Source of the DNA: a virus
DNA: 22,707 bases
Reading direction: 5' to 3' (one strand)
IMG/VR virus record: IMGVR_UViG_3300032893_001086
Span: 1 to 22,707 of that record
Position numbers and translations under genes: made by a program. The first letter of the stretch is position 1. Every line of letters begins with the position of its first letter. The notes under the pieces are model-generated. The model did no database searches, had not been told where the DNA came from, and was given only the letters and a program-made list of their open reading frames with translations. Of the stretch, positions 1 to 21,821 are shown in pieces.

Positions 1-803
1 GATATGATAAGCTCTACTTTAAGTCTGACGACAAACTCTACGGCCTAAACTCATCTGGCGTTGAAGTATTAATTGGACCTTCCACTGGAGGTTCTCAAAA
101 TCTATCCTCTGTATTAGTGACAGGTAATGATGCTGGAACCCATAACATTGTCAATGCTACAGCAATCGTAGCAGGCTCTGCAACCCCTGTATCACCCTTC
201 GGTGACCCAGAAGGACTACAATCCATCGGTGACGGCGTAGACCGACCTATCTATACAATGACCTTTGCCAATAACGGCCATGGCGCCCAAATGGCTTGGT
301 TAAAAGCTAGAGGGTCTCAAGCCTCTCCATCAGCTGTTAATAGCGGAGACGACCTTGGATTCCTGGCATTCGGTGGGTACGGTTCAAGCGCTTTTAATGA
401 GATCTTTGGTGTTATCGCCAGAGCCACTGAGAACTTCTCTAATACAGCGAACGGTTCTAAGCTCCTCTTCCAAAGTATCCCCAATGGCACAGCCGGTCGA
501 GTAAACCGCTGGGAACTGTCTCAAGACGGTAACTGGGTTGGCCTCACAGTAGGTGCTGGATTAAAGATTGCTGAAGGCAGTGATGCCCGCATGGGTAAGA
601 GCACTTTAGTGGGCGGCACGGTCACTGTTAACAATGCTAGCGTTACAAACAACACACGGATCTTCTTAACCAACCAGAACGGCGCCGGCACACCTGGCTT
701 CCTCTATGTATCAGCACGGTCCGCTGGCACAAGCTTCACTATCACTTCAAGCAGCGGAACAGACACCTCTGATGTTGCTTGGTTGCTTGTAGAACCATCA
801 TAA
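1..803 (+). CDS. Tail protein, 3' portion (5' end outside window)
   Basis: The reading frame is open from base 3 to the stop at 801-803, so this is the C-terminal part (about 266 residues) of a gene that begins before the window. The visible N-terminal stretch (YDKLYFKSDDKLYGLNSSGV) is a sequence style seen in phage tail-fibre or tail-spike proteins after the virion-binding region. The rest is rich in Gly, Asn, Ser and Thr, as expected for a beta-rich trimeric fibre or spike. I see no catalytic motif and no chaperone domain. A GTG at 117 could be mistaken for a start, but the frame continues upstream without a stop. The position directly before the lysis genes fits a late tail gene. Receptor binding is an inference. 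Confidence 0.7.
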   Translation, partial: YDKLYFKSDDKLYGLNSSGVEVLIGPSTGGSQNLSSVLVTGNDAGTHNIVNATAIVAGSATPVSPFGDPEGLQSIGDGVDRPIYTMTFANNGHGAQMAWLKARGSQASPSAVNSGDDLGFLAFGGYGSSAFNEIFGVIARATENFSNTANGSKLLFQSIPNGTAGRVNRWELSQDGNWVGLTVGAGLKIAEGSDARMGKSTLVGGTVTVNNASVTNNTRIFLTNQNGAGTPGFLYVSARSAGTSFTITSSSGTDTSDVAWLLVEPS

Positions 804-818
804 TGTAAATAGGATATT

Positions 819-1238
819 ATGCAAGGGATAAAAACCATTGCCATAGCTATAATAGCAGTATTTGCTCCTGCTAAGGCTGTACTTCTTACTGTAATGGTTT
901 TAACCCTGTGTGACCTGGCTACGGGACTCCTAGCAGCCTTAAAGCAACAAATACCCATAACTTCTAGTGGCCTTAAACGGACTGTAGTTAAGATACTGGT
1001 CTATCAGACGGCGGCTCTGTCTGCCTTCTTGGTGGAGCAATACCTTACCCCTATTGAGTTGCCGATTATGAAGATGGTGACAGGCCTAATAGGCGTTACA
1101 GAGCTTAAGTCAGTCTTAGAGAACCTAGACATCATATCCGGGGGTAGCTTCTTTAGTACCCTTATAAGCCGCCTAGCCCAAGGAGATACTAATGCCCCGC
1201 CGCAAGACGACCCGAAAGACCCTCCCTCAGCCGCGTAG
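819..1238 (+). CDS. Phage holin (Phage_holin_4-like)
   Basis: A 139-residue membrane protein expected to form the inner-membrane lesion that lets the endolysin reach the cell wall. Two hydrophobic segments are visible (about residues 5-42 and 57-75). Between and after them lie the signatures DLATGLLAALK (32-42), SSGLKRT (49-55) and ELKSVLENLD (95-104), which resemble the Phage_holin_4 family. The C-terminal tail is hydrophilic and rich in Pro and Asp, as usual for holins. It is the first gene of the lysis cassette. Its last 47 bases overlap the start of the rhomboid gene, and the SD for that gene (AAGGAG) lies inside the holin reading frame. Family call is confident from motif pattern and context; the lysis role follows from the family. 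Confidence 0.85.
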   Translation: MQGIKTIAIAIIAVFAPAKAVLLTVMVLTLCDLATGLLAALKQQIPITSSGLKRTVVKILVYQTAALSAFLVEQYLTPIELPIMKMVTGLIGVTELKSVLENLDIISGGSFFSTLISRLAQGDTNAPPQDDPKDPPSAA

Positions 1239-1785
1239 CCATTATCCCGCTACGGTCGCTATCCTCTTAATCTGCCTTCTTGTTCAAATAGCCTGTGAGC
1301 TCTTTCCAAGCCTAAGAGACCTTCTCTGTCTCACCTCTAGCCAGCCCTGGGGAATCCTCACCTACCAGTTCGCCCATGCCCATTGGCCTCACTTTATAGG
1401 CAATTTTATGTTTGGACTGCCCTTCCTAGCCTTTCTAGAGAGCCGGATAGGGGGTAGACGCCTGGTTCTCTGGTACGTGCTATCTGGGGCCATTTCAGCC
1501 CTATTCTTCTGGCTAATGGCAGGCATGGGAGGAGGCCTCATAGGCGCTAGTGGGTCATTATCTGGAGTGTTTATGGCAGTCTGTTTAACGTTTGGTAAGG
1601 CACCTGTGGATAAGTGCATTGGGGCAGTGATGGGAATGACTATGCTGTCTATGCAGGTTTTATTGGCTGCTACGGATATGTTCTCTGGTGTGGCCTATTG
1701 GGGTCATGTGGGGGGAATGATCTGTGGGGCTTTGTTAGTTTTGGGGGACTTGTGGAAGAAGCCATCCAAAAGGCTATCGCGTTAA
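1192..1785 (+). CDS. Rhomboid-family intramembrane serine protease
   Basis: A 197-residue polytopic membrane protein with all hallmarks of an active rhomboid, a protease that cuts transmembrane segments of other proteins inside the lipid bilayer. The catalytic serine motif GASG is at 118-121 (Ser120), the catalytic histidine motif WGHVGG at 170-175 (His172), and the oxyanion-region pair H67-x3-N71 matches GlpG H150/N154. Six hydrophobic segments can be drawn (about 20-38, 66-84, 90-110, 115-135, 142-160, 167-186), which is the six-helix GlpG core without a cytoplasmic domain. An AAGGAG SD sits 5 bases before the ATG. The gene overlaps the holin by 47 bases and the endolysin by 34, so it is translated as part of the lysis cassette. 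Substrates are unknown; holin, a spanin or a host membrane protein are possible. Confidence 0.9.
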   Translation: MPRRKTTRKTLPQPRSHYPATVAILLICLLVQIACELFPSLRDLLCLTSSQPWGILTYQFAHAHWPHFIGNFMFGLPFLAFLESRIGGRRLVLWYVLSGAISALFFWLMAGMGGGLIGASGSLSGVFMAVCLTFGKAPVDKCIGAVMGMTMLSMQVLLAATDMFSGVAYWGHVGGMICGALLVLGDLWKKPSKRLSR

Positions 1786-3958: not shown

Positions 3959-4219
3959 CTACCTCCTAATAGCCAAAACCCCGGCCCCTCCAACCACGAA
4001 CCCCACCGCTAGCCACAATAGTGGATTAGAGGGCTGCTCATCCACTTTACCCTCTAAGTCCTTCACTTCATCCTTAAGCATCACAATATAATTATCTTGT
4101 TCTTTTGCTACATCCAAGCATGTGTCTAGAGCAATGCTACAAGCATTTTTATCATGAGCATAAGCGCCGCACGACTGTATTAGGATCATTATAATTAATG
4201 TCTCAATGAGCTTGTTCAT
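3959..4219 (-). CDS. Exported coiled-coil protein with C-terminal membrane anchor (spanin candidate)
   Basis: An 86-residue protein with an N-terminal signal (MNKLIETLIIMILIQSCGAY), a periplasmic CSIALDTC motif followed by a coiled coil (about 38-57: AKEQDNYIVMLKDEVKDLEG), and a C-terminal transmembrane helix ending in IRR (64-86). Signal plus coil plus C-terminal anchor is the plan of unimolecular spanins, which link outer and inner membranes in phage lysis. The Cys in IQSC could be a lipidation site but is a poor lipobox, with Gln at -2. AGGAG lies 8 bases before the ATG. Alternatively it is a phage membrane protein of unknown role. Confidence 0.6.
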   Translation of the reverse strand: MNKLIETLIIMILIQSCGAYAHDKNACSIALDTCLDVAKEQDNYIVMLKDEVKDLEGKVDEQPSNPLLWLAVGFVVGGAGVLAIRR

Positions 4220-4515
4220 TTCTTAATCTCCTCAATGCAAATTAACCGGGCGGAGTGGGTTCTGCTTTTGCACATATAATCCATTTTGCATTCATGAAAA
4301 TCCCAGTACTCACCCATTTGTTGAATGCCGTGAACCTCAGGCGCATCCTTCAGGAGTTCCCGGAAGCGGGCGTTGGCCATATCCGCTAAATGCTGCCCAA
4401 AAAGTATTTCCCCCAGTTTTGCTTTCCACAAATCAGCTTCATTGTCTGGAACAATTTTAGCTAATTGAAAATCTGAACTTTTAAACGGGTTTTCCCAATC
4501 AATGACTTTGTTCAT
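4216..4515 (-). CDS. Hypothetical protein (99 aa)
   Basis: Soluble protein starting MNKVIDWENPFKSSDFQLAK, with two or three helices and a C-terminal half containing HECKMDYMC. A longer version from ATG 4533 (MRRFISMNKV...) is possible, with AAGGA upstream. The inner start has GGAG at 10 bases, a long spacing. Which is used cannot be settled here. It sits between two membrane/coiled-coil proteins. No family recognised. Confidence 0.6.
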   Translation of the reverse strand: MNKVIDWENPFKSSDFQLAKIVPDNEADLWKAKLGEILFGQHLADMANARFRELLKDAPEVHGIQQMGEYWDFHECKMDYMCKSRTHSARLICIEEIKK

Positions 4516-4738
4516 ACTTATAAATCTCCGCATCCATCTTGTTCCTTAATACCTCTATTTTAGCTTCTTCATTGGCATTGGTCAAATCAATCCTAGCAGA
4601 TAAGGCTTCTATTTGGGCTTTGTGGAGGCGGGACCCTTGGAGCCTAAGGGCTGCTACAAGCACGCCACATAGCAACACCGTAGACGCCAAGAGCCACTGT
4701 GTGAGACTTAATCGAAGATTTGATAGCCATGAGATCAT
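4499..4738 (-). CDS. Membrane-anchored coiled-coil protein (i-spanin-like topology)
   Basis: A 79-residue protein: a short cytoplasmic N-terminus, one transmembrane helix (about 15-32: LLASTVLLCGVLVAALRL) and an uninterrupted amphipathic helix to the C-terminus (AQIEALSARIDLTNANEEAK). N-terminal anchor plus periplasmic coil is the layout of Rz-type inner-membrane spanins, though it is shorter than most. The ATG overlaps the upstream stop as ATGA. Together with the exported protein at 3959-4219 it could make a spanin pair, but one gene separates them and neither is recognised by sequence. Confidence 0.55.
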   Translation of the reverse strand: MISWLSNLRLSLTQWLLASTVLLCGVLVAALRLQGSRLHKAQIEALSARIDLTNANEEAKIEVLRNKMDAEIYKYEQSH

Positions 4739-5222: not shown

Positions 5223-5950
5223 CTTATCTTCTTTGGTGAAGTGTGCCAGCCTCTGCAATCCTGACAAAACCATTTATACCTAATCGAGGTATTGGTAGCA
5301 TAGGTACCCCGCCGTTCAATGGCTTTAGAACCACACTTAGGACATCCATCCTTGCCTTCTAGGGCAGCCATATTAGGATGAGTATGCATCCAAGGCAACA
5401 ACCTATTATACAACTTCTCCAGTAGCTCCACATCCTTCTTATTATAGCTCTCCATAAGCTTCCAAGACTTAGTCTTATTAGCCATACAGTCCAGCCACAG
5501 ATCAAAACCCGGGGTCTTTATCTTCTTGCCTATACGCAGAAAGCGACAAAGGCTGTCAAGGCTATTGCTATTAAAAGCGAAATACTTACGGGCAACTTTG
5601 CGAGTGTCAACAGAAGGCACAATGCGGGTAGGCTTGAGCCCATGATAAATAAAACGAGCCTTAGCTTTCTTGTAATCAAATGTATCTCCGTTATGGGCTA
5701 CTGTTACATCTGCTGTCTGAAGCAGCTTGTGAAGTGCTTTAGCCAAAGCTTTCTCTTTGCTTTTGGCATTACCTTTAAAGTGGCGTAGACTGAGGCAAGA
5801 AACGCGGCTGTCCCCGGCATACTTCCAAGCGAAAGACAAGAGATGCCAAGTCTCCTTAACGTCAATTGCGTTCTGGTCATATATACCCCATGTGTATGAT
5901 AGGTTAGGCGCGGTTTCAATGTCGTAGAATAATATCTTTGGTTTACTCAT
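5219..5950 (-). CDS. DEDD-family 3'-5' exonuclease with C-terminal zinc ribbon
   Basis: A 243-residue nuclease of the RNase H-like/DnaQ fold (RNase_H_2-type). Exo I is YDIETAP with D10 and E12; exo II is AHNGDTFDYKKAKARF with N87 and D92; exo III is YNKKDVELL with Y169 and D173. This completes a DEDDy-type metal site. The C-terminus adds a zinc ribbon with CPKC (203-206) and CQDC (229-232). Such stand-alone exonucleases occur in many phages beside replication genes and may trim DNA ends or process nucleic acid during replication or host takeover. The start overlaps the CYTH gene stop as ATGA with a G-rich SD. Confidence 0.8.
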   Translation of the reverse strand: MSKPKILFYDIETAPNLSYTWGIYDQNAIDVKETWHLLSFAWKYAGDSRVSCLSLRHFKGNAKSKEKALAKALHKLLQTADVTVAHNGDTFDYKKAKARFIYHGLKPTRIVPSVDTRKVARKYFAFNSNSLDSLCRFLRIGKKIKTPGFDLWLDCMANKTKSWKLMESYNKKDVELLEKLYNRLLPWMHTHPNMAALEGKDGCPKCGSKAIERRGTYATNTSIRYKWFCQDCRGWHTSPKKIR

Positions 5951-6453
5951 AGCCCCTCACTAAACAGCTGATACAACGAATACGGCACAGGGGTTAGAGC
6001 AAATCGAAGCCTGTTGATCAAGTACGACACTTCTCTATCAACCTCATATAGGTCATCTGCTTCAACCTCTAAGAACACCCTATTCTTAGGATCTCCTTCG
6101 ACTTTATATAGACATATGACAGTAGCTTCCTCAAACACGGCGAACTCTTTAACTAGCTTTAGTGGCTTACCATAGAGTAGGGTCATAGCCCGCTTACAAT
6201 CCTTCATTGCACCACGTTCAAGCTTAACATTCTCTTCAATGCGATCAACTACAGTACCTTTATCTGTAACTTTAACCGTTAGCTCCCTGCTATTCTCTCT
6301 AAGGCGAACAAAGTCCACATTAGGAGCCTTCCAGTATAGGTCATAGCTAGTAGCATCGACAGTACAAGGAAACCCGCGCTTAAGAGTCTCCAGAGCATCT
6401 TCATAGGTCAACCCTTCCACTGTGAATTTACGTTCTATTTCACGATTATTCAT
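5947..6453 (-). CDS. CYTH-domain triphosphate tunnel protein
   Basis: A 168-residue protein with the signature of the CYTH (CyaB/thiamine triphosphatase) superfamily. The ExExK motif is at 5-9 (EIERK). Basic tunnel residues follow in FVRLRE (R50, R52) and LTVKVTDKG (K61, K65), and the acidic strand FLEVEA (E129, E131) lies near the end. All the strands needed for the triphosphate tunnel seem present, so it is probably active. CYTH enzymes bind or hydrolyse triphosphates: thiamine triphosphate, tripolyphosphate, RNA 5' ends, or ATP to cAMP in CyaB. The phage substrate cannot be told from sequence. It is coupled to both neighbours by overlapping stops and starts and has a GGAGG SD. Confidence 0.8.
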   Translation of the reverse strand: MNNREIERKFTVEGLTYEDALETLKRGFPCTVDATSYDLYWKAPNVDFVRLRENSRELTVKVTDKGTVVDRIEENVKLERGAMKDCKRAMTLLYGKPLKLVKEFAVFEEATVICLYKVEGDPKNRVFLEVEADDLYEVDREVSYLINRLRFALTPVPYSLYQLFSEGL

Positions 6454-6776
6454 TAGTCCTCCAGTTCTGCTAGAAACGCAGCATTACAAAGAAGATGGTC
6501 AATATGCCTTAAACCACTTTCTTTATCCAACAATTCCCCATTTTGTATACAATAAAGATGTCGAAGAAGAGCAGCTGTGTAACGAGATTTGGCATTAGGT
6601 ACCGTTCTCCATCCGTTAGGAGAATACTTCTTGGCACCAAATGTAAGTACACTAACAAGGCCAGCAATAGCCTTCCAAGGAAGAAGATCCCACCTAGGTT
6701 TACCATTATCATCCTTTGCTCCTGCTACGTGTAAATCTAGTTTTACTTCTGGCTGTTTTAGCTTTGCGTCGCTCAT
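6453..6776 (-). CDS. dATP/dGTP diphosphohydrolase-like protein (MazG-like, phage type)
   Basis: A 107-residue protein whose core (KPRWDLLPWKAIAGLV, FGAKKYSPNGWR, RYTAALLRHLYC, GLRHIDHLLCNAAFLAEL) matches the small phage dNTP hydrolase domain annotated as dATP/dGTP diphosphohydrolase. Members cleave dNTPs to dNMP and pyrophosphate; MazZ of 2-aminoadenine phages supplies dGMP to PurZ. The start at ATG 6776 has AAAGGAGAG 4 bases upstream. A longer frame to 6929 only re-reads the HNH gene and is rejected. It overlaps the HNH gene by 68 bases. Adjustment of nucleotide pools is the likely role; no PurZ is visible in this window. Confidence 0.7.
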   Translation of the reverse strand: MSDAKLKQPEVKLDLHVAGAKDDNGKPRWDLLPWKAIAGLVSVLTFGAKKYSPNGWRTVPNAKSRYTAALLRHLYCIQNGELLDKESGLRHIDHLLCNAAFLAELED

Positions 6777-7116
6777 CGTTCTCTCCTTTGGTTTTGATAT
6801 CGTGACATGGTCTACACAGTACTTGGAAGCCACTACACTCTGGAAACATCCGTAGCACATATTGGGCAATACCACCGGGTTCGGTGGGGCTTGTCGGCAA
6901 TACCGGCACAACTGGATCTTTGTGGTCAACTCTCACCTCTTTATTCTTATACACTTTACCGCATATGGCACATTTGTACAAGCCCCGATCCACCCTAGCT
7001 AGCTTCATGGCTTCCCCTCTTGGGGGCCATCTGAAACTGGCGCGGCGGAGGGTCCAACGGACGAACTGTTCTCGGAATTTGTTCCAGTCTGTTATAGGCT
7101 TTTCAGTCTTTGCCAT
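6709..7116 (-). CDS. HNH endonuclease
   Basis: A 135-residue nuclease with a zinc-stabilised HNH domain: CAIC (49-52), VRVDHKDPV (61-69, H65 as the general base) and LCRPCHDIKTKGEN (100-113). The C-terminus is a basic tail (KTARSKTRFTRSRSKG) suited to DNA contact. It is a free-standing enzyme here, not inside an intron. Its place between a replication protein and a nucleotide hydrolase could mean a homing-type nuclease or a role in replication or packaging. There is no strong SD; translation is probably coupled to the preceding gene, which it overlaps by 14 bases. Confidence 0.8.
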   Translation of the reverse strand: MAKTEKPITDWNKFREQFVRWTLRRASFRWPPRGEAMKLARVDRGLYKCAICGKVYKNKEVRVDHKDPVVPVLPTSPTEPGGIAQYVLRMFPECSGFQVLCRPCHDIKTKGENDERRKAKTARSKTRFTRSRSKG

Positions 7117-8198: not shown

Positions 8199-8438
8199 CT
8201 ATACCGACCCCGACCCCGACCCCGACCACGACCTCGACCCCGACCCCGACCTCCACCCCGACCACGACCCCGACCTCGACCTCGACCCCGACCCCGACCC
8301 CGACCACGACCTCGACCCCGACCACGACCCCGACCCCGACCACGACCTCGACCTCGACCCCGACTCCGACCCCGACCTCGACCCCGACCTCGACCTCGAC
8401 CGAAGATATTTACATTTATAATATTGTTGGATCTTCAT
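8199..8438 (-). CDS. Ser-dipeptide repeat protein (RS/GS/WS)
   Basis: A 79-residue product. A short unique N-terminus (MKIQQYYKCKYL) is followed by about 66 residues alternating Ser with Arg, Gly or Trp. The repeat part is a direct translation of the hexanucleotide array at 8205-8402. The ATG overlaps the preceding stop as ATGA, so it should be translated, and the stop falls 10 bases before the primase start. The product would be disordered and basic, like RS-rich RNA-binding tails, but a purely DNA-level role of the repeat is equally possible. Trp every few dipeptides is unusual. Confidence 0.5.
   Translation of the reverse strand: MKIQQYYKCKYLRSRSRSGSRSGSESGSRSRSWSGSGSWSGSRSWSGSGSGSRSRSGSWSGWRSGSGSRSWSGSGSGSV
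8205..8402. repeat. Hexanucleotide tandem repeat, 33 units
   Basis: Thirty-three consecutive hexamers of the form CGACCN on the + strand (N mostly C, T or A) with no insertion or deletion. Only two units carry a change elsewhere (CCACCC and CGACTC). The array is far more GC-rich than its surroundings. The - strand contains repeated GGGG and GG runs separated by TC, which could form G-quadruplexes in DNA or in the transcript. It lies between the LSm-like and primase genes. Confidence 0.95.
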
Positions 8439-16241: not shown

Positions 16242-16502
16242 ATGCCAGTCTCAAAGATAGACAAACTATATAAAAAGTCTCTTAGAATCATAGAACGGGA
16301 TATACAACACATCCAAAACCTCACCATAGGCGCTAAATTGGACCCAGACAGCGCTATGGACCTAGCCCGCTACGTAAAGCTTCTAGCAGACATGAAGAAG
16401 GCTCAGGAAGCAGCCGATAAGAAAAGAGCCGATACGGCCAAGGCAGCCACGAAAGACTTAACAGATGAACAAATCGAAGCAGCCCTCAAAGCCAAAGGTT
16501 AA
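16242..16502 (+). CDS. Small terminase-like protein (86 aa)
   Basis: A helical protein directly before and overlapping the large terminase. It starts MPVSKIDKLYKKSLRIIERD and has the segment LDPDSAMDLARYVKLLADMK, a helix pair seen in small terminase-associated proteins. The C-terminus is Lys/Ala-rich with DEQIEAALKAKG. It is shorter than most TerS proteins, and I see no helix-turn-helix, so the assignment rests largely on position. No SD: the leader before ATG is C/A-rich. Confidence 0.45.
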   Translation: MPVSKIDKLYKKSLRIIERDIQHIQNLTIGAKLDPDSAMDLARYVKLLADMKKAQEAADKKRADTAKAATKDLTDEQIEAALKAKG

Positions 16503-18042
16503 ACTTACACGGTCTGAAGCCTTAAGAGAGCTAGCCCGCCGCCGTGGCTTAATAGATGAGCCAGGAACATTCAGGCTAGAGAACTATTTATTCGACAAGC
16601 AGCTGGCGTTTGTAAGAGATCCTAGTGACTTTAAAGCAGCGGTGACAACGCGTCGATCGGGTAAGACTGAAGGTTGTGCAGCTGACCTAAATGACGCGGC
16701 CTCACGGTCTGAAGACTATGGTGTATTCCTCTACATCACTATCAACCGTAAGATGGCTAAACGTAACATCTGGCCTAAGCTTAAGATGATTAATAGGATG
16801 TTTGCCTTGGGCGGTGTGCCGAATGAGTCGGACCTAACTATTACATATCCTAAGGGAGGCATCATAATGTGCCTCGGCGCTGAGGATAGAGGGGCCATAG
16901 AGAACCTTCGAGGTCTGGCTATTAAGAAGGCTTATCTAGATGAGGTGCAGTCGTTTCCTGAGTATATTAGAGAGCTAGTGGACTTAGTGATCGGTCCGGC
17001 CCTTATGGACTATCAAGGCCAGCTCATCCTCATCGGCACGCCCGGTGCTGTGCCAGCTGGTTACTTCTATGACCTCACCAACCCGTCCAGCCCTAACTAC
17101 ATAGGCCAAGGATGCTCTAAGCATAGCTGGTCCTTCTTTGATAATCCTAAGATGCCCTATCTCAAGCTAGGTAAGACACACCAGGATGCTCTGGACCGTG
17201 AACTTAAACGTCGAGGGGTGACTGTAGCCGATCCTAGTATACAGCGGGAGTGGTTTGGTCGGTGGGTGACGGATGAGAATAGCCTTGTCTACCATTGGGG
17301 CCAGCACAACCACTACGACCAGTTACCACAAGGTAACTACCATTATCTTATCGGCCTGGACCTAGGGTTTGGAGATGCTGATGCTATAGCTTTACTTGCC
17401 TATAGTGATACATCGCTTAAGACCTACTTGGTTGAGGAGAAGATAACACGCGGTCAGGACATATCGGCTTTGGTTAAGCAGATTGAGGGTATGCTGGCCA
17501 AATACGATGTAGACAAGATTGTAGTGGATACAGGTGGTTTAGGTAAGAAGATAACAGAGGAAATAGCCAAGCGGTTCTCTGTACCTATGGTTGCGGCTGA
17601 GAAGACCCGTAAGATGGAATACATTGAACTTATGAACGATGCTATGCGCACAGGCAAGCTCATGATCAAGGCAACCAGTCAATTTGCTATGGATAGTGTG
17701 AAGGTTGAGTGGGATCATGACAAGTCTACGCCTGACCGTAAAGTCATATCCAATCGATTTCACTCAGACATATGTGACGCCGTGCTCTATGCATGGAGAG
17801 AGTCTTATTCCTACACTTATAAGGTCGAGAAGGCTGCACCAGAGTTTGGGACCAAAGAGTGGTCAGATGAGCAGTCGGAGATGATGTTTCAGGCCGAGCT
17901 TGAACGGCTTGAGGAAGCTAAGACGGTCGAGAATGAGCTTAAGGAGCGGTACACAGTTGAGCCTGATCTGAACGGTGTACAGAGACTGGATCGACCCAAG
18001 CTTAGGTACCAGGACCGGTTCGATAAAAGACGTAAGATATAG
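16465..18042 (+). CDS. terL: Terminase large subunit
   Basis: A 525-residue DNA packaging motor. The ATPase domain has Walker A TTRRSGKT (61-68), Walker B with KKAYLDEV (D159, E160) and the coupling segment LILIGTPG (187-194). The RNase H-like nuclease domain has GLDLGFGD (D299), KIVVDTGG (D355) and HSDICDAVLYAW (D435/D438). All catalytic residues are present. It cuts concatemers and drives DNA into the prohead through the portal encoded downstream. It overlaps the preceding small gene by 38 bases and has no obvious SD. Confidence 0.92.
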   Translation: MNKSKQPSKPKVKLTRSEALRELARRRGLIDEPGTFRLENYLFDKQLAFVRDPSDFKAAVTTRRSGKTEGCAADLNDAASRSEDYGVFLYITINRKMAKRNIWPKLKMINRMFALGGVPNESDLTITYPKGGIIMCLGAEDRGAIENLRGLAIKKAYLDEVQSFPEYIRELVDLVIGPALMDYQGQLILIGTPGAVPAGYFYDLTNPSSPNYIGQGCSKHSWSFFDNPKMPYLKLGKTHQDALDRELKRRGVTVADPSIQREWFGRWVTDENSLVYHWGQHNHYDQLPQGNYHYLIGLDLGFGDADAIALLAYSDTSLKTYLVEEKITRGQDISALVKQIEGMLAKYDVDKIVVDTGGLGKKITEEIAKRFSVPMVAAEKTRKMEYIELMNDAMRTGKLMIKATSQFAMDSVKVEWDHDKSTPDRKVISNRFHSDICDAVLYAWRESYSYTYKVEKAAPEFGTKEWSDEQSEMMFQAELERLEEAKTVENELKERYTVEPDLNGVQRLDRPKLRYQDRFDKRRKI

Positions 18043-19898: not shown

Positions 19899-21821
19899 AT
19901 GGCTTTAAAGACTTCTCCAAAAGAAAAGACTGCAGGAACAAGAGTACAGCAAGTATTCCGTACTTCCAACAATCCAATGAATCAACCCAATATGGGCTAT
20001 CGTTGGTGGGAAGCCAAAGATGATAGGCAACGTGCAGAGCAACTTTGTGCCACCTTTGCTTATCTTAAATCCTCACAACAACCTCGTCTTCGACAATTAG
20101 CAATTTTTGCCCGCCTCTATAGTGGTCAGCCGTTGTTCAGTTTTATTGGGGCCAATATGTCCCTAATGGACCAGTACAGCCCTCTTGCCCCAAATCGACC
20201 CACCTATAACATAGTATCTTCAATCACAGGAACTCTGGTATCTCGTATTACTCAGAACCGCCCCTCTCCAACTTTCCTAACTGACAACGGCGACTACAAG
20301 GAACGTAATCTTGCGAAGAAACTTAATAGCTTTATTCTTGGCGAGTTCTACAGGATTAAAGCCTACGAAGTAGGCGAATACATCCTCACTGATGCTCTTG
20401 GCTGGGGTGGTACTGGTTGCCTTAAAGTCTATGAAGGTCAAGACAAGAAAGTCTGCATAGAGCGTAAGCTAGTTAGTTCATTGTTTGTTGATTTACAGGA
20501 AAGTGCCCATGGCGACCCAAGACGATTATATGAAGCAGCTCTTTACGATAGAGAAATGCTAAAGTCGATGTTTCCCGATAGGAAACATATCATCGAACAG
20601 GCAGAGAAGTCCACTGTTGATAAGTCTGCTCAGGCATCTAAATCAGTTTCTGATCTTGTGATGGTTGTGGAGGGATGGAGTCTCCCTTCTGGTCCCGACG
20701 CCAATGACGGCATGCATACTATCGCTTGTTCTTCTGGAGAACTCTTTAGTGAACCGTGGAAAAAGGAAAAGTTCCCCTTTGTATTCCTCCACCATCACAA
20801 GCGTGCTCTTGGCTTCTGGTCTATGAGTGTGGCCGAGAAGCAAATGGGTAGCCAGCTTGAATTAAATAGCCTCCTTGACACTATCTCCAAATCTATTAAA
20901 CTTACCGGGGTACCGAGGGTATTCTATGAGCAAGGCTCGAAAGTCAACAAAGCGTCGTTCTCGAACAAAATTGGTATACTCATTCCATATACAGGAGTTA
21001 AGCCCACTGTTGAAGTATCGAGTTGTGTTCCTGCTGAAATGTACCAGGAACGGGACCGAATTATTCAATATGCCTATAACGACGAAGGACTTAGTCAGCT
21101 GTCTGCTACATCCCAAAAACCGGAAGGATTGGATAGCGGAGAAGCACAAAGGGTGTATCAAGATATCAATGCGGAGCGGTTCGCGGCTCTTGAAAAACGT
21201 TATTCAAACTTCTATGTAGACTTAGCTTACCAGGTGATGGATCTCGTTAAGGACATCATTGAACGTGATGGCAAGTATGAGACAGTGTTTGTAGACCGTA
21301 AGAAGGGTCGTAGAGAGATCAGTCTAGATAATGTGGCTCTCCTTGATGACACATTTGTCATTCAGTGCTATACAGAATCCTCTCTGCCAAAAGATCCAGC
21401 AGGACGTCTCCAAAAAGTAACTGAAATGATTCAATCAGGAATGATTGACATTCAGGAAGGACGTCGCCTTCTCGACTTCCCGGACCTAGGGCAGCAAGAA
21501 ACTCTCGCTAATGCTGCCGAAGAACGGATTTATCAAGCCCTTGATGACATTGTCGAGCACGGTAAGTTTGAACCACCTGATCAATTCCTCCCTTTACCCA
21601 AAGCTGAACAGATTGTTGTTCAGTATATTAATCTTTATGCTCAATGTAAGCTTGAAGAAAAGAAAATGCAGTCCTTGAGAGACTGGTTTGCTGCCCTACA
21701 ACAGTTAAAAGCTCAAGCAATGCCTCCTCCAATGCCAGCTCCGCAGCCTCAAGCAGCTCCTCAACCTACTCCAACATCTCCCTTAGTGCCTAATAGCGCT
21801 AACCCAATGCCCCCACAATAA
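19899..21821 (+). CDS. Portal protein
   Basis: A 640-residue protein with the features of podovirus-type portals: NRPTYNIVSSITGTLVSRIT followed by QNRPSPTFLTDNG (about 98-130), a helical crown entry (RNLAKKLNSFILGEFYRIKA), TDALGWGGTGCLKVYEG (about 164-180) and ELNSLLDTISKSIK in the stem region. The C-terminal 40 residues are a Pro/Gln/Ala tail. It forms the dodecameric vertex through which the terminase pumps DNA. It lies downstream of terL and upstream of the scaffold gene, the usual order. No good SD is visible; the start is 4 bases after the previous stop. Confidence 0.88.
   Translation: MALKTSPKEKTAGTRVQQVFRTSNNPMNQPNMGYRWWEAKDDRQRAEQLCATFAYLKSSQQPRLRQLAIFARLYSGQPLFSFIGANMSLMDQYSPLAPNRPTYNIVSSITGTLVSRITQNRPSPTFLTDNGDYKERNLAKKLNSFILGEFYRIKAYEVGEYILTDALGWGGTGCLKVYEGQDKKVCIERKLVSSLFVDLQESAHGDPRRLYEAALYDREMLKSMFPDRKHIIEQAEKSTVDKSAQASKSVSDLVMVVEGWSLPSGPDANDGMHTIACSSGELFSEPWKKEKFPFVFLHHHKRALGFWSMSVAEKQMGSQLELNSLLDTISKSIKLTGVPRVFYEQGSKVNKASFSNKIGILIPYTGVKPTVEVSSCVPAEMYQERDRIIQYAYNDEGLSQLSATSQKPEGLDSGEAQRVYQDINAERFAALEKRYSNFYVDLAYQVMDLVKDIIERDGKYETVFVDRKKGRREISLDNVALLDDTFVIQCYTESSLPKDPAGRLQKVTEMIQSGMIDIQEGRRLLDFPDLGQQETLANAAEERIYQALDDIVEHGKFEPPDQFLPLPKAEQIVVQYINLYAQCKLEEKKMQSLRDWFAALQQLKAQAMPPPMPAPQPQAAPQPTPTSPLVPNSANPMPPQ

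Follow-up and report, generated by a model that had tools for sequence, protein, structure and literature searches.

We found that a phage lysis cassette includes a gene for a rhomboid intramembrane protease whose active site, as judged from its sequence, is intact and whose product is presumably proteolytic. The gene lies on a 22.7-kb virus record from IMG/VR, which we handled as a fragment and refer to in its entirety as the window. Two diverged homologs with full active sites were found in the lysis cassettes of related phages, which strengthens the original prediction of an apparently active rhomboid at this site. We consider it probable that the protein is an acquired phage rhomboid that is translated together with the lysis genes and cuts one or more single-pass inner-membrane proteins near lysis. 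The observations behind this reading are homology and fold, an active site present in three diverged homologs, two different positions within the lysis block, and absence of the gene from a sister group of phages.

Table 1. Lysis-region genes and small membrane-protein genes of the window
Feature	Coordinates	Strand	Characteristics
Tail fiber C-terminus, 5' end cut by contig	3..803	+	Pfam K1-lyase_C, E = 8e-29
Holin	819..1238	+	139 aa; Pfam Phage_holin_4_1, E = 2.8e-8
Rhomboid intramembrane serine protease	1192..1785	+	197 aa, ATG start; S120/H172 dyad; Pfam PF01694, E = 7.3e-20
GH24 endolysin (phage lysozyme)	1752..2261	+	169 aa, GTG start; Pfam PF00959 Phage_lysozyme, E = 4e-33
Small type-I membrane protein, candidate substrate	3959..4219	-	Conserved across phage clade; topology screen
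Small Rz-like protein	4499..4738	-	N-terminal TM, helical periplasmic part; companion of type-I protein; clade-wide homologs

Reading from the left end of the window, the plus strand encodes the end of a tail fiber, the holin, the rhomboid, and the endolysin, in that order (Table 1). The fiber, which has a K1-lyase C-terminal domain, lies directly upstream of the lysis cassette, and a fiber-like gene also stands upstream of the holin in three related contigs (G003, G004, and G224). The rhomboid gene overlaps the holin gene by 47 bases and the endolysin gene by 34 bases when the latter is read from its GTG at position 1752; both overlaps, and the coordinates of the reading frame, are exactly those originally predicted. 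The GTG 1752 start agrees with the N-termini of homologous endolysins, and a longer frame from GTG 1614 was dropped because the homologs start at the 1752 position. A strong Shine-Dalgarno sequence, AAGGAG, precedes the rhomboid ATG (aaggagatactaATG). Together, the overlapping genes and the Shine-Dalgarno sites point to a single transcript with coupled translation. By its location, the rhomboid gene belongs to the lysis cassette, and it would probably be cotranscribed with its neighbors. The window holin is 44 to 47% identical to the holins of related phages. As in a canonical holin-endolysin cassette, a holin is followed by a GH24 endolysin directly after the tail-fiber genes. Unlike the canonical arrangement, the window cassette has an additional intramembrane protease gene and no recognizable spanin in the operon; neither a canonical spanin nor an antiholin was identified anywhere in the window.

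Beyond the endolysin, convergent genes on the minus strand encode small ORFs, an exonuclease, a CYTH protein, a PolA-type polymerase, and a YqaJ/RecE nuclease. This block is followed by plus-strand genes that include those for the large terminase (16465-18042) and a portal-like protein (19899-21821). The CYTH-domain protein (5947-6453, minus strand; Pfam E = 2e-5), found here in a small phage, is 42% identical to the one in G004, and the same strand encodes a protein with a dATP/dGTP diphosphohydrolase N-terminal domain (6453-6929; Pfam E = 2.5e-29). Just downstream of the polymerase gene, positions 8204-8401 hold 33 copies of the hexamer CCGACC in an open frame with a Ser/Arg/Gly/Trp-rich reading. 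Other long in-frame tandem arrays occur in the early region of the related contig G002 (L012, 8761-9161 and 10765-11215).

The assignments of the rhomboid and of the lysis genes are far beyond chance. For the rhomboid, Pfam gave 72 bits, the cut-off being 22.6. All seven active-site residues (H62, H67, N71, G118, S120, H172, and G175) are present, arranged as H62, H67-x3-N71, G118-A119-S120-G121, and G171-H172-V-G-G175, so that the protein has the Ser-His dyad in GxSx and HxxG, plus the H-x3-N motif, by which PF01694 members are recognized. The positions previously assigned to GASG with Ser120, WGHVGG with His172, and H67-x3-N71 were likewise correct to the residue. In a family alignment of 98 sequences, H62, H67, N71, and G118 were invariant and S120 was found in 96, while H172 and G175 were kept in 95 rhomboids, the other three having gaps. 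An alignment-based AlphaFold2 model (pLDDT 77, pTM 0.68) contained six long helices (residues 19-37, 65-86, 88-110, 119-134, 138-161, and 163-189), the fourth of which begins at about Ser120. The leading PDB matches of this model in Foldseek were all E. coli GlpG, with a TM-score of about 0.6 (0.64 for the leading matches). The predicted structure is therefore the six-TM rhomboid fold. Six hydrophobic segments had been proposed from the sequence; the model has six helices, but only four of the six segments passed a plain hydropathy cut-off and the other two depend on the model.

Relatives of the window were identified among IMG/VR contigs, four of which have a large terminase about 60% identical to its own; for a fifth the identity is 56%. 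In G003 (37.9 kb), the rhomboid gene adjoins the lysozyme gene. Read on the minus strand, its order is tail fiber, holin, endolysin, and rhomboid, with a 4-base overlap between the last two. The same order of fiber, holin, endolysin, and rhomboid was found in G224 (37.7 kb; recovered by a portal-based scan), with overlaps of 13 to 14 bases, so that genes of the lysis cassette overlap in all three rhomboid phages. The expectation that related phages would carry a rhomboid between holin and GH24 endolysin was thus borne out for the cassette but not for the position, since the gene lies between holin and endolysin in the window and after the endolysin in G003 and G224. Neither homolog has lost the catalytic Ser or His, a loss that the original prediction had named as evidence against itself. 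The portal proteins of G003 and G224 are 76 to 77% identical to that of the window. Between the window and G003, identity is 34% for the rhomboid (BLAST), 44% for the holin, 44% for the endolysin, 64% for PolA, and 77% for the portal.

Trees of the portal and PolA proteins placed the window, G003, G224, and G002 in one subclade (100/100), to which the portal tree added G005 and G225. The window was basal among the three rhomboid phages in the portal tree (94/91), and the PolA tree gave no resolved order. All three subclade members with a visible lysis cassette carry the rhomboid; these three, all on metagenome contigs, are the only known lysis-cassette rhomboids of the subclade. No holin or lysozyme was detected on G002, G005, G225, and G001, which are fragments and are uninformative on the presence of the rhomboid. 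The rhomboid was absent from 16 sister-group contigs (G004 and fifteen others) with a holin-endolysin pair, many of which are nearly identical and one of which ends right after the endolysin. Among 50 portal relatives, a rhomboid was found in G224 only and a GH24 lysozyme in four, G224 included. Since close relatives have the holin-endolysin pair with no rhomboid, the latter is an accessory gene in the lysis block of this lineage and not a core lysis gene.

The three phage rhomboids are only 31 to 35% identical to each other. In a tree with 92 other rhomboids they formed one clade (100/95), to be read with some caution given the long branches, and a phage clade was also recovered when only two of the phage proteins were used. 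Across 169 aligned columns, 32 were identical in all three proteins, including seven of the seven chosen active-site columns (hypergeometric P of about 5e-6, a value that partly reflects ordinary family-wide conservation). Identical active-site columns amid such deep divergence are expected if the gene was acquired once and then selected for catalysis. The most likely history is a single ancestral acquisition, with the catalytic residues apparently kept and the gene remaining in the lysis block despite the change in order.

We compared the window rhomboid with known rhomboid groups. It shares with E. coli GlpG, the closest solved fold, and with other bacterial rhomboid proteases of PF01694 the six-TM core and the H-x3-N, GxSG, and HxxG motifs. 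Unlike GlpG, it has no N-terminal cytoplasmic domain and is encoded by a phage in a lysis operon. Membership in the GlpG group was rejected because this domain is absent and the score of about 21 bits is far below the curated cut-offs of models TIGR04239 and NF008155 (250 or 335). Rhomboid folds have also been catalogued in Caudoviricetes proteins, namely BFVD entries A0A6J5NSS0 ("rhombosortase [uncultured Caudovirales phage]") and A0A8S5Q3G3 ("Rhomboid family [Siphoviridae]") and PHROG 16931, which matched the window rhomboid with E = 3e-9. These catalogued proteins differ from it in sequence, at about 20% identity, and no link between them and lysis was reported in the open literature searched. 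Phage rhomboids as such are thus already known. No description of a lysis-operon rhomboid was found in 5.4 million open papers, a collection that does not cover subscription papers, and a 2025 review of the rhomboid superfamily makes no mention of phages or viruses.

Rhomboids were few in the phage-record collection, and several look like host sequence. When the window and G003 rhomboids were used as protein queries against 50,697 phage records, no significant match was returned, and no rhomboid match was found in the plasmids searched. We discarded four further rhomboids on the basis of their surroundings. One, in a record labeled Acinetobacter phage MD-2021a (CAKLQH020000010.1; L081), sits among chromosomal-type genes and carries no evidence of a lysis role. 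The genes around it include fepA, GlpG, and sulfatase genes, and the record looks like a mislabeled bacterial chromosome. A rhomboid on a fecal contig has housekeeping-like genes around it, and the neighbors of another, from an archaeal virus, are unnamed proteins; neither offers evidence of a lysis role. A rhomboid on a 132-kb IMG/VR contig (L062, 5878-6453) is beside type II topoisomerase genes, a nonlysis context.

Rhomboids favor single-pass type I or type III proteins with metastable TM segments (PMC7232013), and the gene for a dedicated rhombosortase is usually a neighbor of the gene for its only target (PMC3237569). A crude topology screen, whose thresholds missed the G224 copy, found only one window ORF with type-I topology, the small membrane protein listed in Table 1. 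Its layout consists of a signal peptide, C-x6-C, a coiled-coil-like middle, a Gly-rich C-terminal TM, and a basic tail, RR. In the window, 2.2 kb separate its gene from that of the rhomboid. The corresponding two genes meet tail-to-tail in G003 and G224, with overlaps of 55 and 8 bases, respectively. Given this abutment and the adjacency habit of rhombosortases and their targets, the type-I protein is the best phage-encoded candidate, although its chance of being the actual substrate is modest. A host type-I or type-III membrane protein is about equally likely to be the target, and the holin or another lysis protein is an improbable one. The type-I protein and its Rz-like companion have homologs throughout the phage clade, and since these include relatives without a rhomboid, the type-I protein does not strictly need the protease. 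The pair had no Pfam match and no significant PHROG match and is possibly an unrecognized spanin-like or envelope pair. An identity of the type-I protein as a u-spanin was unsupported, as the lipobox-like LIQSC of the window copy is weak and the homologs lack any such motif. A tethered endolysin released by the rhomboid was also rejected: by hydropathy the endolysin has no signal, anchor, or any hydrophobic segment, which makes the earlier suggestion that a membrane-tethered factor is released unlikely for this protein.

Rhombosortases offer the nearest parallel among curated subfamilies. TIGR03902 was the best such match of the window rhomboid (E = 6e-9), and both have the minimal six-TM size; moreover, the rhomboid genes of G003 and G224 adjoin the type-I gene, whose product ends in a Gly-rich TM and basic residues. 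Unlike in rhombosortase systems, there is no large secreted target. By the cut-off of that model (84 bits), the window rhomboid, at 36.1 bits, is not a member. The type-I protein has the Gly-rich TM and basic tail but no match to the GlyGly-CTERM model.

We propose that a cellular rhomboid was acquired once by the ancestor of the subclade and gave rise to a phage-lineage rhomboid. This protein would be translated together with holin and endolysin, presumably late in infection, and may then act on the envelope by cleaving inner-membrane proteins with a single TM segment near the time of lysis. Against this explanation, lysis in the wider clade does not depend on the rhomboid. We hold only tentatively to a more specific version, in which the rhomboid is a dedicated, functional lysis component and helps to time or complete lysis by processing either the phage type-I envelope protein or one of the lysis proteins. 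Its absence from sister phages and its unfixed position in the cassette would also suit a passenger (moron) gene that entered the late operon by chance and has a function unrelated to lysis. However, it always adjoins the endolysin and was kept in three of three visible subclade cassettes with every active-site residue intact despite 31 to 35% identity, and we regard a passenger as rather unlikely.

Alternatively, the rhomboid could regulate lysis timing by cutting the holin, or an unrecognized antiholin or spanin, and so set the moment of membrane permeabilization. The overlapping genes of a shared operon, and the retention of the rhomboid in the lysis block though its position moved, are consistent with such a regulator. 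Yet this holin family is common to the 16 rhomboid-less relatives, and its members are multi-pass, unlike most of the known substrates of bacterial rhomboids, which are single-pass type I or III proteins (PMC7232013). With no canonical spanin or antiholin identified in the window, we consider this role unlikely. There is a limited but real chance that the protease is instead directed at the host and, at a late stage of infection, clips a type-I inner-membrane or secreted protein (a receptor or a protein of secretion or of the surface). Such cleavage might, for instance, weaken the envelope, help to release progeny, or serve superinfection exclusion. Bacterial rhomboids do act on host type-I proteins and sorting tags (PMC7232013, PMC6219818), and the rhombosortase model TIGR03902, the best match though a weak one (E = 6e-9), points the same way. 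But all 61 sampled Pseudomonadota genomes, from one phylum, have rhomboids of their own, so a copy encoded by a phage would have to differ from these in specificity. Inactive rhomboid-like proteins, the iRhoms, also exist and were among the weaker fold matches of the window rhomboid, which raises the idea of a catalytically irrelevant membrane protein serving as a chaperone, an adaptor, or an extra holin-like protein. The active-site Ser, His, Asn, and Gly all persist in three homologs in which about 80% of positions have changed, and such a noncatalytic role is very improbable.

Control of phage lysis is known from holins, antiholins, endolysins (including SAR endolysins), and spanins. The presence of a rhomboid in the lysis block suggests that these phages make use of intramembrane cutting in ending infection. 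If the rhomboid is kept active there, it would add regulated intramembrane proteolysis to the control of phage lysis. It would also provide a compact system for the question of natural substrates, which concerns most bacterial rhomboids, in a phage proteome where proteins with a suitable topology are very few.
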